From Chlorobiaceae bacterium (GTDB taxonomy: Bacteria; Bacteroidota; Chlorobiia; Chlorobiales; Chlorobiaceae), in contig JAAXVR010000026.1 of NCBI GenBank assembly GCA_013335405.1, positions 1-38,888 of the forward strand: a DNA stretch of 38,888 nt, written 5' to 3'. Under the pieces are notes generated by a model. The model was not told where the DNA came from. It ran no database searches and was given only the letters and a program-made list of their open reading frames with translations. Made by a program: the position numbers and the translations under genes. Positions 6,383-17,498 of the stretch are shown piece after piece (position 1 is the stretch's first letter; the number at the start of each line of letters is the position of its first letter).

Positions 6383-7294
6383 TTAAAAATCGCCGAAAAT
6401 CGTTTCGCCGATTATTTCAAGTGCTTTTTCGGCATCCTCCTTCGAAGGAGGTTTTCCATGCCAGTTGGTATTATCCTCCATGGTACCCTCGAAGAAAGGC
6501 ACGCCTTTGCCCATGATCGTTTCGGCAAGGATTACCGCCGGCCCTGACCGTTTTTCTCCGTCGCGGAGTTTCTCCACAGCAGCCACGAAATCCTCTATGT
6601 CGTTACCATTGCAGTGATGGACATCCCATCCGAAGGCACGCCATTTATCGGCGAACGGTTCCAGGTTCATGACATCAGCAACCTGGCCATCGATCTGCTG
6701 GTTGTTGTAATCGACGATACCGATGAGATTGCCGAGTCCATAATGCGAGGCGCTCATGGCAGCCTCCCATATCTGCCCTTCCTGACATTCACCGTCACCC
6801 ATCAGGCAGATCACGAAACTCTCGCTGCCGTCCATGCGAAGACCAAGGGCGGCGCCGACCGCAGCTGAAAGGCCCTGTCCCAGTGAACCGGAAGCGATTC
6901 TGATCCCCGGAAGTCTTGATTCCGATGTGGGATGACCCTGAAGATAGGAATTGACCTGGCGAAGGGATGCAAGCTCCTCGATGGAAAAATAACCTGAACG
7001 GGCAAGTACGCTGTACCAGACCGGAGCGATGTGGCCGTTTGAGAGATATACCATATCCTGATCGTGGTGGTGCCAGAAAGCGTGCGGCTTGTGACGGAGA
7101 AGGCGGAAATAGAGCGCCGTGAATATATCGGCCATGCCGAGAGATCCGCCTGTATGACCGGAATTGGCCATTGCAAGCATTCTGATGATGTCACGGCGGA
7201 CCTGACGCGCCATTTCCCTGAGCTGTTCTACCGAATCGAGCTCGAGCAGCTGGCCTTTTTTTTCAGCAGGATAATGTTTTAAATCTCTTGCCAT
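6383..7294 (-). CDS. transketolase, N-terminal (ThDP-binding) subunit
   Basis: Provides the pyrophosphate-binding half of a two-subunit transketolase, transferring C2 units in the pentose phosphate pathway. The 303-residue product carries NSGHTGGSLGMADI, SNGHIAPVWY and the ThDP/Mg motif starting GDGE at about 166-169 and ending with the Asn pair at 197-198. It stops before the pyrimidine-binding and C-terminal domains of ordinary ~650-residue transketolases. No C-terminal partner gene is in this window. I start it at ATG 7294 (MARDLKHYP); the frame stays open to 7519, but that extension is hydrophobic, lacks family character and would run into the DedA gene. It sits between DedA and rsmD in a minus-strand series. 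Confidence 0.93.
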   Translation of the reverse strand: MARDLKHYPAEKKGQLLELDSVEQLREMARQVRRDIIRMLAMANSGHTGGSLGMADIFTALYFRLLRHKPHAFWHHHDQDMVYLSNGHIAPVWYSVLARSGYFSIEELASLRQVNSYLQGHPTSESRLPGIRIASGSLGQGLSAAVGAALGLRMDGSESFVICLMGDGECQEGQIWEAAMSASHYGLGNLIGIVDYNNQQIDGQVADVMNLEPFADKWRAFGWDVHHCNGNDIEDFVAAVEKLRDGEKRSGPAVILAETIMGKGVPFFEGTMEDNTNWHGKPPSKEDAEKALEIIGETIFGDF

Positions 7295-10804: not shown

Positions 10805-12250
10805 TTACGGATTGATGGTTATGGTTTTCGTCAGATCGAAACGCTTCATTTTCCTGATCAGTGTCGAACGGCTGATACCGAGAAGTTCCGCTGTTTTCGT
10901 CTGGTTGCCGCCGCACTGCTTGTAAGCCTTGAGGATTGCCTGCAGTTCCATGTCCTTGAGTATCGGATGCCCCTGCACATCACCATCCGGAAGAAGTTTT
11001 CCGGCGTTTCCCGCAGCATCGTCGGCAAACCCTTCCTTTTCCGCTGCCGCCTCATGTTCCGGCGCCGCATGGGAAGCCGACGGCAGGTTGAAGGTGTCGA
11101 TCGTATTGCCCTTGCGGTTGATGACGGCCCGACGGATCACATTCTGGAGCTCACGGATGTTTCCCGGCCAGCGATAAGCCTTCAGGGAATTCAATGCTTT
11201 CGTCGAAATATCCGGCGGTTCGATATTGTTCGCCTTGCAGAATTCATTGAGAAAATGTCTGGCCAGCAGGACAATATCATCATCCCTTTCCCTCAATGGA
11301 GGTATATAAAGCGGATACTCTTCAAGACGATAATAAAGATCGGCCCTGAACGAGTTTGTCGCGATTGCCTCGGTGAAATCCCTGTGGGTGGCTGAAATGA
11401 GCCTGAAATCGACAGGTCGCTCCCTCTTCTCGCCAATCCTCCTGATCTTCTTTTCCTGCAGCACACGCAGAACCTTTGCCTGTATATCGATATTCATATC
11501 GCCGATTTCATCCAGAAAAATCGTACCATGGTCCGCCTGTTCGAAAAACCCTGTATGGTCACTGTTGGCACCGGTAAAGGAACCTTTCAGATGTCCGAAA
11601 AGAAGGCTGTCTGCAAGATCGTTGGATATGGCGGCACAATTGATGGTAACAAACGGCCCCTGCTTCCGCTTGCTTCCGTTATGGATAGCCTGGGCAAAAA
11701 GCTCTTTGCCGGTGCCGCTTTCCCCGTTGATCAGGACATTCATATCGGTTTCCATGACCTGCATGGCCTGTTCGACACATTGCTTGATGGCAGAGCTGGC
11801 TCCGACAATAAAATTGAAAATGTCCTTCTGTTTCAGTTCCTTTTTCAGCTCATTGATTTTCTGTTTCAGGCCGGATTCTGCCAGGGCGTTTCTGAGAAGG
11901 ATTTCAAGGCGTTGCTTGTCTACAGGCTTGGTGAGGTACTCGTAAGCCCCGAGCTTGATACATTTGACCGCCTGGCTGATGTCTTCCATCGCTGTGATGA
12001 TGATGACCGGAAACAGATAAGACTGATCCTGCAGGTAGGAAAGAACTTCCATACCGCTTTTCAGCGGCATGTTGAGATCGAGCAGAAGAACGTCGATCTG
12101 GTTCTTTTCGATCGTTTCAATGCACTGCTCGCCATTTTCCGCAGTCAGCACGTCGTAACCGAGCCTTTTGAGCAGATGGCTTATAAGGGTACGGATTACC
12201 GAACTGTCGTCGGCAACGAGTACCATTTGTTTTGAAACGTTCTGTACCAT
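10805..12250 (-). CDS. sigma-54-dependent response regulator (NtrC/LuxO type)
   Basis: Two-component transcription activator for RNA polymerase with sigma-54. Of 481 residues, about 8-122 form a receiver with phospho-acceptor Asp58 (LLLDLNMP), acidic pair near 14-15 and Lys108. The AAA+ domain (about 146-375) has Walker A GESGTGKE at 176-183, the sigma-54 contact loop as GSFTGA at 223-228 instead of GAFTGA, and Walker B TIFLDEIG at 243-250. A Fis-type helix-turn-helix is at about 436-472 (GGNQTKTAELLGISRSTLIR). The ATG has AGAGGGG upstream. With a CqsS-like kinase and CqsA-like synthase in the same cluster, this is the obvious candidate for the LuxO role. NtrC, ZraR and LuxO cannot be separated on domain content alone. 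Confidence 0.9.
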   Translation of the reverse strand: MVQNVSKQMVLVADDSSVIRTLISHLLKRLGYDVLTAENGEQCIETIEKNQIDVLLLDLNMPLKSGMEVLSYLQDQSYLFPVIIITAMEDISQAVKCIKLGAYEYLTKPVDKQRLEILLRNALAESGLKQKINELKKELKQKDIFNFIVGASSAIKQCVEQAMQVMETDMNVLINGESGTGKELFAQAIHNGSKRKQGPFVTINCAAISNDLADSLLFGHLKGSFTGANSDHTGFFEQADHGTIFLDEIGDMNIDIQAKVLRVLQEKKIRRIGEKRERPVDFRLISATHRDFTEAIATNSFRADLYYRLEEYPLYIPPLRERDDDIVLLARHFLNEFCKANNIEPPDISTKALNSLKAYRWPGNIRELQNVIRRAVINRKGNTIDTFNLPSASHAAPEHEAAAEKEGFADDAAGNAGKLLPDGDVQGHPILKDMELQAILKAYKQCGGNQTKTAELLGISRSTLIRKMKRFDLTKTITINP

Positions 12251-12436: not shown

Positions 12437-12454
12437 TTGATACAACTGTATCAA
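12437..12454. promoter_or_regulatory. 18-bp palindrome, candidate activator (enhancer) site
   Basis: TTGATACAACTGTATCAA is an 8-bp perfect inverted repeat with a 2-bp centre, in the gap between the activator gene and the small gene at 12662. It lies 158-175 bp upstream of the start predicted for the sigma-54 promoter at 12586-12601, a usual distance for NtrC-family enhancer sites. A lone TTGATAC half-site occurs again in the activator's own leader at about 12252-12258. Binding is inferred, not shown. Confidence 0.5.
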
Positions 12455-12585
12455 TGTTTTTCTCAAATCCTCAGCCATGATTTGATCGGGAAAAAGGGCA
12501 ACAAACCGTTAATCGCTTTTATTAAATTACTTTACGTCGAAATCACCAGCAATCGAACCCCGCATCCTGATTCGCATACAACATC

Positions 12586-12601
12586 CGGCATGATTTTTGC
12601 A
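12586..12601 (+). promoter_or_regulatory. predicted sigma-54 (-24/-12) promoter
   Basis: CGGCATGATTTTTGCA fits the sigma-54 consensus TGGCACG-N4-TTGCA at all but the first and sixth bases. GG (12587-12588) and GC (12599-12600) have the obligatory 10-bp spacing. Transcription would begin near 12612, about 50 nt before the ATG of the 67-codon gene at 12662, which has AAGG at normal spacing. The closest encoded sigma-54 activator is the adjacent gene. Confidence 0.62.
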
Positions 12602-12661
12602 ATCATATCAGAAGATTTAAAAAAAACACAGCAATTCAGGACATGTTACATAAGGCCCGGT

Positions 12662-12865
12662 ATGACAAATGAACTATTCAACAGACTTGCATTCGCTGTT
12701 TCTGATATTGATTTCTCTGTCATTCAACTGAAACGCATTTACGAAGGCAATGCAACTCCGGGAAAAGACCGAAGCACAGAAACAAGGGAACTGCTCCAGG
12801 CGCTTGTAACCGACATAAAAACCATTGAAGCGAACCTGAATGACATTTTATCGAAATTATCCTGA
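12662..12865 (+). CDS. small uncharacterised protein (67 residues), putative sigma-54-driven
   Basis: I recognise no family. The 67-residue product starts MTNELFNRLAFAVSDIDFSV and ends with a long amphipathic, heptad-like helix (about residues 40-66, RELLQALVTDIKTIEANL within it). This suggests a coiled-coil or small adaptor protein in the cytoplasm, with no cysteines and no membrane segment. I prefer this start over the longer open frame from 12398. The ATG is preceded by ATAAGG, and the upstream part of the frame is not protein-like and contains a sigma-54 promoter and a palindrome. Its place between activator and sensor kinase makes it a candidate output or feedback component of the quorum-sensing module. 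Confidence 0.6.
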   Translation: MTNELFNRLAFAVSDIDFSVIQLKRIYEGNATPGKDRSTETRELLQALVTDIKTIEANLNDILSKLS

Positions 12866-13316: not shown

Positions 13317-15857
13317 TTATGTCTTTTCAAGACGGATATAGCGCTGCAGATCCTGAACAGTATCCGCATAGACTTTTTTCAGGATATCGAGCCATCCCGC
13401 CTTTTCAGGCCACTCCCCTCTCCGCGCCAGTTCGTTGAGATATTTGCAGAGAACATGCATTTTATTGGCCCCGACACTTCCGGACGACCCTTTCAGGGTG
13501 TGGGTCAGGTAGTCCACCTGTTCAATATCACGTTTTTCGCAGGCATCGTTCAGTTCCCCTGTCAGTTTGTCCGTATCGAGAATATACGTTTCAAACAGGC
13601 TTCCCAAGAGCTCATCACCGCCAATTTCCCTTAGTCCGTTGATGGTCGAAGGATCAAGCACTTTTTCAATTTCGAGTTTGCTCCAGAAATCCGGTCCCTC
13701 ATGGCCGGATTCCGTCATTTTTGTTTTGTTCATTGGTTTTTCCTCGGTCGTGTCATGTTTTAGCATTACTGCAATAGCGGAAAGAAGCTCATCTTTGAAG
13801 ACTGGCTTGCCAAGCATGTAATTCATTCCGGCGTTCCTGATATCCTGCACGCTCTTTTCATCTGTATTCCCGGTCAGCGCAATGATCGGAATCCGGCTGA
13901 ACGAGGTGAAACGCACGAAATTCTTCCCGCCCCTGATGGCCTTTGCCGCCTCGATTCCATCCATTACAGGCATCTGGATATCCATGAGCACCAGATCGAA
14001 ACTTTCCTTTTCGAGCATTTCGATGGCATCACGTCCGTTCAGGGCGTGTTCGGTAATACAGCCGTACTGGTTGAGCACCATGCTCATGAATTTTCTGCTG
14101 GTTTTGTTGTCGTCGACCAGCAGGATGCGTTTTCCGGAGATAACCTCCTCCTGCGTGTTCCTGATGGAAGAGATTTCGGAGAAGAAATACTTTTCAACGA
14201 TTCTTTTAATGTCGGAACGCTTGACCGGTTTTGACAGCACCTCGTTCATTCCGCTCTTTTTTCCTCTTTTGCCCGCTTCCTGTTCAGGCAGTGCCGTAAC
14301 TCCGACGACCGGAGCCTGCAGATAATGCAGTGCAAGGGCGGGATCGATATCCTGTGCGGAACGGATCATCTTGACGACACTGTCCCCGTTGAGGAACGGC
14401 ATCTCGAAATCCATGAAAATCAGATCGTAACGGTTCTCGGAGATAAGGGCGAGCGCCTGGTTTCCGTTTTCCGCCTGATCGAACTGGCAATTCATTTCGG
14501 AAAGAAATTTCGCAATGATGAGCCGGTTTCCAAGCTGATCGTCGACGATCAGGACTCTTTTTTTCCGGAGAATTCTGTTTTTAATTTCTGTAACAATCTT
14601 CGAATCATACTTTGGAAGCGTAATGGTAAATTCAGTCCATTCCCCTTCTCTTGAATCGCAGGATATCGTTCCTCCGAAAGACTCGACTACCCTTCTGCAG
14701 AAAGAGAGCCCAAGGCCGAATCCGCCTTTCTTGTTGGTATAAAAACTTTCGAAAATTTTCTCTTTTCGACCCGCAGGGATTCCGGGACCGGTATCCCTGA
14801 CCCTTATCCAATTTTCGGAATCGGTCCCGTCAGTCGTAATTTCTATGGAGAACCCGTGTTTATCCTTGTAATACAGGGCATTCTTCATCAGGTTGAACAA
14901 GACATAGAAAAACAGGTCCCGGTCACCAAGAAAATCAAAATCCCTTTTTTTCGTTACCGTAACCAGCGTTCTTTCTGCAGTGTCACTGTACGGATAACTC
15001 TTGACCACGGTATCCATCAGCAATGAGGAAGAGTTGCGAATAAAACCCGCTGTCGCCACCTCTCCCCCCTGCATGCTGGTCAGAATCGAGTCGATGATCT
15101 TGTTCGCCCTGTTCAGGGTGAAGGAACTTTCCTCGATGACATGATGAATGCTCGTAAGGCTTGTATGGCTTATATCATATCGTTCTTGTTCTTCTTCCCC
15201 GTCCGGTTTCCGCGGAAGACTTGCCTGCACCGTGGCTATCGCATTGGTGATGGAACTGAGCGGATTGCGCATTTCATGCGCGATACTGCCGCTCAGGCTT
15301 CTGAGCAGCGAGATTTTCGATTTATGTGCTGCCTGTTTTCTGTGGTTGATGATCAATCCGCCGAAAAGTGCGAAAAAGAAGGTGGGAATATATTCCGCCC
15401 TGAAATAGGTGAACCGGACCTCCCCTTCCAGAGCCCACACCGCGCCGTAAGCGGCAAAAAAGCTGAAAACCAGCATAACGCAGATGATCCGCCAGTCGTA
15501 GACGAGTATGATAAGAAGCACCAGACCGCCGATGGTCGACAATGCCCAGGTTAAAGACCAGGCGTTCTCGAACGTCATGAAAAAGAAAAAGAACGGCAGA
15601 AGCAGGGGGACCGAAAAAAGAAAATAGAGCGGGAAATAATCCTTGACCTTTTTCGGAAGGAATCGGTAAAAAAGCCAGGGAAGGCTTATAACAGCTTCGA
15701 GAAGACGAAATTCGAGGCTTTCGTAAGGTTGGGGCAGAATATCTTTCCAGACCACGTAGAAGAGCGGGTAACCAATAGTGGCAAACATCCCGATAACCGG
15801 GATATTGGGTTCAGCCTGCTCTATTAATTCTATAGCTTTTTGTTTAAGCTTCTGCAT
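13317..15857 (-). CDS. cqsS: CqsS-like hybrid sensor histidine kinase with two receivers and Hpt
   Basis: Probable receptor kinase for an alpha-hydroxyketone (CAI-1-type) autoinducer in the inner membrane. The N-terminus (AEPNIPVIG...GYPLFYVVW, PQPYESLEFR) and six hydrophobic segments at about 20-37, 52-66, 74-94, 104-120, 122-141 and 156-171 match the CqsS sensor. The kinase part has H box SIAHEMRNPLS with His194, N box around Asn322-Asn326 and G boxes DTGPGIP (355-361) and GFGLGL (379-384). Two receivers follow, with Asp483 (FMDFEMP) and Asp626 (LMDIQMP), then an Hpt domain with His786 (THTLKGSSGS). The 846 residues exceed the ~690 of Vibrio CqsS, which has no Hpt and a degenerate first receiver, as I recall. 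It is divergent from the CqsA-like synthase gene. Confidence 0.9.
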   Translation of the reverse strand: MQKLKQKAIELIEQAEPNIPVIGMFATIGYPLFYVVWKDILPQPYESLEFRLLEAVISLPWLFYRFLPKKVKDYFPLYFLFSVPLLLPFFFFFMTFENAWSLTWALSTIGGLVLLIILVYDWRIICVMLVFSFFAAYGAVWALEGEVRFTYFRAEYIPTFFFALFGGLIINHRKQAAHKSKISLLRSLSGSIAHEMRNPLSSITNAIATVQASLPRKPDGEEEQERYDISHTSLTSIHHVIEESSFTLNRANKIIDSILTSMQGGEVATAGFIRNSSSLLMDTVVKSYPYSDTAERTLVTVTKKRDFDFLGDRDLFFYVLFNLMKNALYYKDKHGFSIEITTDGTDSENWIRVRDTGPGIPAGRKEKIFESFYTNKKGGFGLGLSFCRRVVESFGGTISCDSREGEWTEFTITLPKYDSKIVTEIKNRILRKKRVLIVDDQLGNRLIIAKFLSEMNCQFDQAENGNQALALISENRYDLIFMDFEMPFLNGDSVVKMIRSAQDIDPALALHYLQAPVVGVTALPEQEAGKRGKKSGMNEVLSKPVKRSDIKRIVEKYFFSEISSIRNTQEEVISGKRILLVDDNKTSRKFMSMVLNQYGCITEHALNGRDAIEMLEKESFDLVLMDIQMPVMDGIEAAKAIRGGKNFVRFTSFSRIPIIALTGNTDEKSVQDIRNAGMNYMLGKPVFKDELLSAIAVMLKHDTTEEKPMNKTKMTESGHEGPDFWSKLEIEKVLDPSTINGLREIGGDELLGSLFETYILDTDKLTGELNDACEKRDIEQVDYLTHTLKGSSGSVGANKMHVLCKYLNELARRGEWPEKAGWLDILKKVYADTVQDLQRYIRLEKT

Positions 15858-16247: not shown

Positions 16248-17498
16248 ATGGATAACAATCAGTTAAACATTCACGACAACCAAAGACCACCCTGCGGAGG
16301 AAAACTGGATTTTCCCGAGTTTCTGGAAAAAAAGCTTATTGAATGCGACAAGGAAATATTTCAGCCTCGAAAAAACGGCAAACCCCTTGTTGTTGGTGAC
16401 AGGAGCCCTGGTCCCGAAGCTATCGTTCTGCAAAGTAACGATTATCTGAACATTTCGAGCCATCCGGACATCCGGAAAGCCCAGCTCGATATTCTCCAGA
16501 ACAAACAGAGTGAGCCGGTCATGTCGGCGGTGTTCTTCCACGAAGACAGTCCGAACCACCTCTTCGAACAGGAAATGGCTCAATTCGCCGGTTTTGAAAA
16601 TTCGATCGTCTGTCAGTCGGGCTGGGCGGCAAATGTCGGTCTGATGCAGGTAATCGCTGACAGGACCACCCCTGTTTACATTGACTTTTTTACCCACATG
16701 TCTCTGTGGGAAGGGATCAAGGTATCGGGGGCAACACCGCATTCCTTCAGGCACAACGACCCGGAACACCTCGAACGGCTGATTCGGGAACACGGCCAGG
16801 GCATTATCCTGATCGATTCCCTTTACAGCACCATCGGAGACATCGCCCCGCTTGTCGACATCATTGAAATCGCCAACCGATACGAATGCATTTCCATTGT
16901 CGATGAATCCCATTCACTCGGGACACATGGCCCTCATGGTTCCGGCCTGGTTGCGGAATCTGGACTGACCGACAAGGTGCATTTCATAACGGGAAGTCTT
17001 GCAAAGGCTTTTGCCGGACGTGCAGGTATCATCATCTGCTCGAACCGGTTCGCGAAATATTACCCCTACATGGCCTTCCCTGCAATTTTCAGTTCCGCGC
17101 TTCTTCCGCATGAAATTGCGGGGCTGAGGGCAACGATCAAGGTCATCACGGAAGGGGACCAACGCAGGGAAAAACTTCGTGAAAACGCAAAATTCCTCCG
17201 TGACGGGCTCGACGGCCTTGGCTACAATATTGCAAGCCAGTCACAGATCATCGCCATAGAAGGCGGACTGGAGTCGGACACCGAACTCCTTCGTGATGCA
17301 CTGGAAACAAGAAATGTTTTCGGATCGGTTTTCATGACCCCTGCAACGCCGAAAACCAGGTCTCTCATGCGCTTTTCCCTGCACAGCGGCCTTGAAAAGG
17401 AAGCGTTGCAATACGTACTCGAAGTCTGCGAAGAAATCAGGGACGAAGTCGGCATGTGGAACTGGAAATCGACAAAGAGGAAATCTCCCCGTTCGTGA
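16248..17498 (+). CDS. cqsA: CqsA-like alpha-hydroxyketone (CAI-1-type) autoinducer synthase
   Basis: PLP-dependent alpha-oxoamine synthase-fold enzyme expected to condense a fatty acyl-CoA with an amino-acid-derived substrate to make a long-chain (amino/hydroxy)ketone signal. Diagnostic CqsA blocks are LQSNDYL (61-67), [11 protein letters not shown] (122-132), [14 protein letters not shown] (143-156), IDSLYSTIG (189-197), [11 protein letters not shown] (218-228), the PLP lysine Lys253 in [33 protein letters not shown] and [13 protein letters not shown] and BioF paralogues lack the YIDFF-HMSLWEG block. The 416 residues compare with ~390 in Vibrio. The N-terminal 20 residues are extra, and no clear Shine-Dalgarno precedes this ATG. 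The divergent neighbour is the cognate-type sensor. Acyl chain length and substrate choice are unknown. Confidence 0.92.

Follow-up and report, generated by a model that had tools for sequence, protein, structure and literature searches.

The window is a 38,888-nucleotide stretch of a Chlorobiaceae bacterium genome (contig JAAXVR010000026.1). In it, a sigma-54 promoter and an upstream enhancer site probably drive expression of a 67-amino-acid helical-hairpin protein, through which the NtrC-family regulator encoded next to it would have a direct output within the locus. The first-pass annotation had already proposed that the neighboring activator has a direct sigma-54 target here, and this is the best reading of the region, given that both DNA elements are conserved, rpoN is present and the domains of the activator fit this role.

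Promoter and palindrome in the divergent spacer

The sigma-54 (-24/-12) promoter CGGCATGATTTTTGCA is located at 12586-12601 on the + strand and matches the consensus at 14 of 15 positions. Its coordinates and exact GG-N10-GC spacing, noted in the first-pass annotation, were verified: the -24 GG occupies 12587-12588 and the -12 GC occupies 12599-12600, within TGGYAY-N5-TTGC. The placement of the element between the activator and kinase genes also stands, but its target is not the kinase; it is a 67-aa ORF on the + strand that had been overlooked. The promoter faces this ORF and has the activator gene behind it, and the kinase gene (- strand) reads towards the small ORF, so the promoter is not that of the kinase. 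A transcript start 12 bp after the -12 GC, as predicted from the promoter position, would give a 5' leader of about 50 nt (12612..12661, + strand). Sigma-54 itself is encoded in the genome (PF04552, E 8.5e-55).

The presumed upstream activating site is the 18-bp palindrome TTGATACAACTGTATCAA (12437-12454, without strand), which has perfect 8-bp arms and a 2-bp center, and for which related elements were identified in the other full loci. It is inside the spacer between the divergent genes, where the activator gene starts about 186 bp to one side of it and the sigma-54 site is 149 bp to the other. About 166 bp separate its center from the predicted start near 12612 (a distance of about 165 bp had been reported, and the length of 18 bp is confirmed).

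In a single sequence, the significance of the promoter and palindrome is modest, and neither alone is conclusive. When the spacer was dinucleotide-shuffled 2000 times, a promoter match this good or better turned up at the equivalent position (a range of 40-65 bp, chosen after the data were seen) in 4 cases; genome-wide, TGGYAYN5TTGC is matched 28 times and its reversed control 23 times. Shuffling also produced an 18-mer with perfect 8-bp arms in 257 of 20000 spacers (1.3%), and any 8-bp inverted repeat with a spacer of 0-10 in 531 of 5000. The window holds three other 18-mers with perfect 8-bp arms. The exact 18-mer is unique in its genome, with one further place when up to three mismatches are allowed, and a genome-wide search for the palindrome pattern matched only the window locus and its counterpart in genome G008. 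The elements are convincing because they are conserved across relatives. Thus, although the form of the palindrome recurs in shuffled spacers and the promoter consensus is barely enriched in the genome, it is extremely improbable that they are chance matches in an AT-rich spacer, as their position and sequence are conserved over 11 loci with otherwise diverged spacers.

The first-pass annotation had proposed a search for the palindrome near other promoters. The one place found with up to three mismatches is near an adhesin gene on contig C26 of the same genome (G000:C26:58825-59582; L175:4826-5583). There, a large secreted repeat-adhesin-like gene is preceded at 138 bp by a sigma-54 site (TGGTATACTAATTGC), and a palindrome-like sequence (TTGATTCAGCTGTTTCAA, 3 mismatches) occurs 333 bp upstream of that site. 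The adhesin promoter is conserved in G097 (TGGTATACAAATTGC), but the palindrome-like element is not, so we treat the adhesin gene as a lead only.

Conservation of the elements, the activator and the small protein

The presumed output gene (12662-12865, + strand) has a coding signature and is conserved at 11 loci in 10 genomes, all of one genus, as shown by a profile search that covered 98 genomes of the order. Two extra profile matches (E about 0.0015) were set aside as short partial matches inside longer frames. The ORF is divergent from an orthologous activator at all 11 loci. These loci include close pairs, and G008, which contributes two copies (the one on contig C92 is cut by the contig end), is 7% contaminated; the 11 loci are therefore counted as about seven independent lineages.

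A sigma-54 consensus sequence (14-15 of 15 positions) occurs 44-61 bp 5' of the ATG at 11 of 11 orthologous loci. All six full loci, those with CqsA, kinase, ORF and activator, also have a TTGAnnCAnnTGnnTCAA-type element upstream of the sigma-54 site at a distance of 137-152 bp. The variants are TTGATACAACTGTATCAA, ATGACACAACTGTCTCAA (two loci), TTGACTCATATGCGTCAA, TCGACACAATTGTTTCAT and, in G072, the degenerate TTTACTCATATGCGGGAA. When the spacers of these six loci are compared in 16-bp stretches, conservation is highest at the sigma-54 site and at the palindrome, and the remainder has diverged. Five of the six, the window being the exception, have a second, ACTGTRTCA-like half-site, situated about 50 bp farther upstream. 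The five loci without CqsA have a half-site version (TTGATACA or GAGACAGTTGT type) about 80-112 bp upstream of the sigma-54 site; these short loci retain mainly one half-site of the palindrome, which, like the degenerate element of G072, weighs against the proposed reading. Upstream of four sister-type activators (54-61% identity) that lack the ORF, neither a 14/15 sigma-54 site nor such a palindrome was identified. According to the first-pass annotation, its reading would fail if neither element were conserved in genomes that keep the cluster. The comparison of relatives shows the opposite, as both are kept wherever the cluster is kept. On these comparative grounds, the region 12437-12601 is confirmed as a real regulatory element.

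The presumed activator (10805..12250, - strand) is an NtrC-family response regulator with REC (PF00072), AAA+ sigma-54 interaction (PF00158) and Fis-type HTH (PF02954) domains. The earlier description of this protein as LuxO-like holds by analogy only: with the LuxO equivalog model NF041946 it scores 361 bits, below the cut-off of 800 and below its scores with the AtoC and NtrC models, and the operator differs from the Vibrio LuxO site. The loop that contacts sigma-54 reads GSFTGA rather than GAFTGA in eight of ten orthologues (GAFTGA occurs in the other two), a departure that counts against the proposed reading. The activators beside the small ORF at other loci are 64-93% identical to that of the window, and the full-length orthologues 64-90%. 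The family splits cleanly into a subclade that scores at least 677 bits, all members of which occur with the ORF, and a sister type that scores at most 595 bits and occurs without it. No member of the subclade was found without the small ORF.

The sister-type activators (L124-L127) are encoded downstream of a conserved protein of about 200 aa that starts with MAAEELN or MAEELN and has repeated amphipathic segments. Among genomes with CqsA, the two activator types never occur together.

We infer that the palindrome is bound by the activator encoded next to it. Alternatively, it could be the site of some other regulator, or an operator through which the activator controls its own gene, so that only the sigma-54 site belongs to the ORF. 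The spacer is shared by both divergent genes, and the genome encodes further NtrC-type activators (many first-look candidates), both of which would allow for this alternative. We consider it unlikely, however, as the distance between palindrome and sigma-54 site stays at 137-152 bp in all six full loci, the activator is the sole regulator that is always linked to the ORF, and both elements are missing upstream of the sister-type activators.

Five loci encode the activator and the ORF in genomes that have no match to CqsA. The pair is therefore the core conserved unit, and it need not be tied to quorum sensing. The neighbors at the examined loci of this kind are housekeeping genes (e.g., a thioredoxin-reductase-like oxidoreductase and DNA polymerase III alpha), and no kinase was identified among the neighbors tested.

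The substitution pattern indicates that the small ORF codes for a protein and is under purifying selection, with dN/dS of about 0.16-0.3 where measurable and differences mostly at third codon positions. AlphaFold2 predicts a two-helix hairpin (mean pLDDT 88), and the invariant residues are M1, D17, L23, E40, E43, L44, A47 and D51. The protein and its family have no Pfam match, and the protein itself has no NCBIfam match. A PDB sequence search with the protein returned weak matches only, and a PDB fold search gave no convincing match. In the loci of G022 and G011, the small ORF is followed downstream by another conserved one of about 70 aa or more, which contains NVLRKLR..HISFPMFLV.LA and is on the minus strand (L122 ~6725-6955 and L123 ~6680-6910).

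The promoter might instead drive a regulatory RNA of the Qrr type, as beside Vibrio luxO, in which case the ORF would be incidental. In both cases, the target is divergent from the gene of a sigma-54 activator within an alpha-hydroxyketone signaling cluster: Vibrio qrr1 and luxO are oppositely oriented, with qrr1 151 bp upstream of luxO and provided with sites for LuxO and sigma-54 (PMC8043402). We nevertheless consider a Qrr-type RNA very unlikely. The ORF is conserved as a protein and its third positions are saturated, so the RNA itself is not conserved in the ORF. Further, no Rfam match was identified and a terminator scan found no terminator-like site. Qrr action in Vibrio is mediated by Hfq, and Hfq was identified in none of the 65 genomes of the genus (the control search recovered Hfq in 5 of 14 known genomes).

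Predicted signaling route

The window encodes CqsA, an alpha-hydroxyketone autoinducer synthase (16248..17498, + strand; NF005526, 616 bits versus a cut-off of 428), and a CqsS-like membrane hybrid histidine kinase (13317..15857, - strand) with the Pfam architecture HisKA-HATPase-REC-REC-Hpt, the membrane segments of which were judged by eye from the sequence. Each of the six full loci has the kinase gene next to cqsA, as do most of the other CqsA loci retrieved, and the kinase gene adjoins the activator-ORF pair in six loci. A scan of the genome_contigs collection with the kinase matched generic hybrid kinases, none of them a close relative. Within the order, an activator of either type is encoded in 24 of 30 genomes with CqsA versus 12 of 68 without (Fisher p 6e-9, a value that ignores the kinship of the genomes). 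The same genome has another cqsA gene elsewhere (G000:C57:6499-10854; L121), the product of which is 66% identical; a hybrid kinase gene of its own accompanies it, and no activator or small ORF was identified adjacent to it.

We predict that CqsA produces an alpha-hydroxyketone signal that would be sensed by the membrane hybrid kinase. Phosphate could then pass from the histidine to REC, to the kinase's own Hpt domain and to the activator, a phosphorelay suggested by the domain content of the proteins. A separate LuxU would not be needed, as the Hpt is within the kinase itself. The phosphorylated activator may oligomerize on the palindrome about 150 bp upstream (and, in most relatives, on the weaker second site) and remodel the sigma-54 polymerase at 12586-12601. 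The small protein would be made from the resulting transcript, and the pathway is probably active at low signal, by analogy with phosphorylated LuxO and qrr1 in Vibrio.

Because the pair persists without CqsA, we think it most likely that the small protein works near the activator, either as a feedback modulator or as a dedicated effector. A more speculative proposal, to which we give rather little weight, is that in this Hfq-lacking lineage a small helical protein does the job of the Qrr sRNAs in the alpha-hydroxyketone relay, as one signal-controlled molecule with several downstream targets.

Comparison with known quorum-sensing systems

In green sulfur bacteria, cqsA and cqsS are adjacent, as in the window (PMC10158934, PMC5289986). 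The passages on cqsA/cqsS in these two papers name no adjoining response regulator, sigma-54 promoter or target gene, and LuxO and sigma-54 are not mentioned in PMC10158934. No regulator or output of green sulfur CqsA/CqsS pairs is described in the literature covered by our search, which took in few subscription journals. The locus now supplies a specific candidate regulator, operator, promoter and target for these known pairs.

The Legionella Lqs system also combines an alpha-hydroxyketone synthase with a sensor kinase. Its regulator, LqsR, is described as a response regulator of the prototypic kind (PMC5289986), whereas the regulator encoded here is an NtrC-type sigma-54 activator with a target alongside.

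The locus has the layout of Vibrio luxO-qrr1, yet it does not belong to that family. Shared features are a CqsA-type synthase, a membrane hybrid kinase, an NtrC-type regulator, a divergent sigma-54 target and upstream palindromic sites. Unlike the CqsA/CqsS-LuxU-LuxO-Qrr pathway of Vibrio, the Hpt domain is built into the kinase, and the operator is of the TTGAnnCAnnTGnnTCAA type (TTGATACAACTGTATCAA in the window) rather than the Vibrio LuxO operator TTGCAWWWTGCAA (PMC10162802). The output also differs, being a conserved 67-aa protein here and an sRNA in Vibrio. The locus thereby suggests that, in the absence of Hfq, a protein can serve as the sigma-54 output encoded divergently from a quorum regulator.
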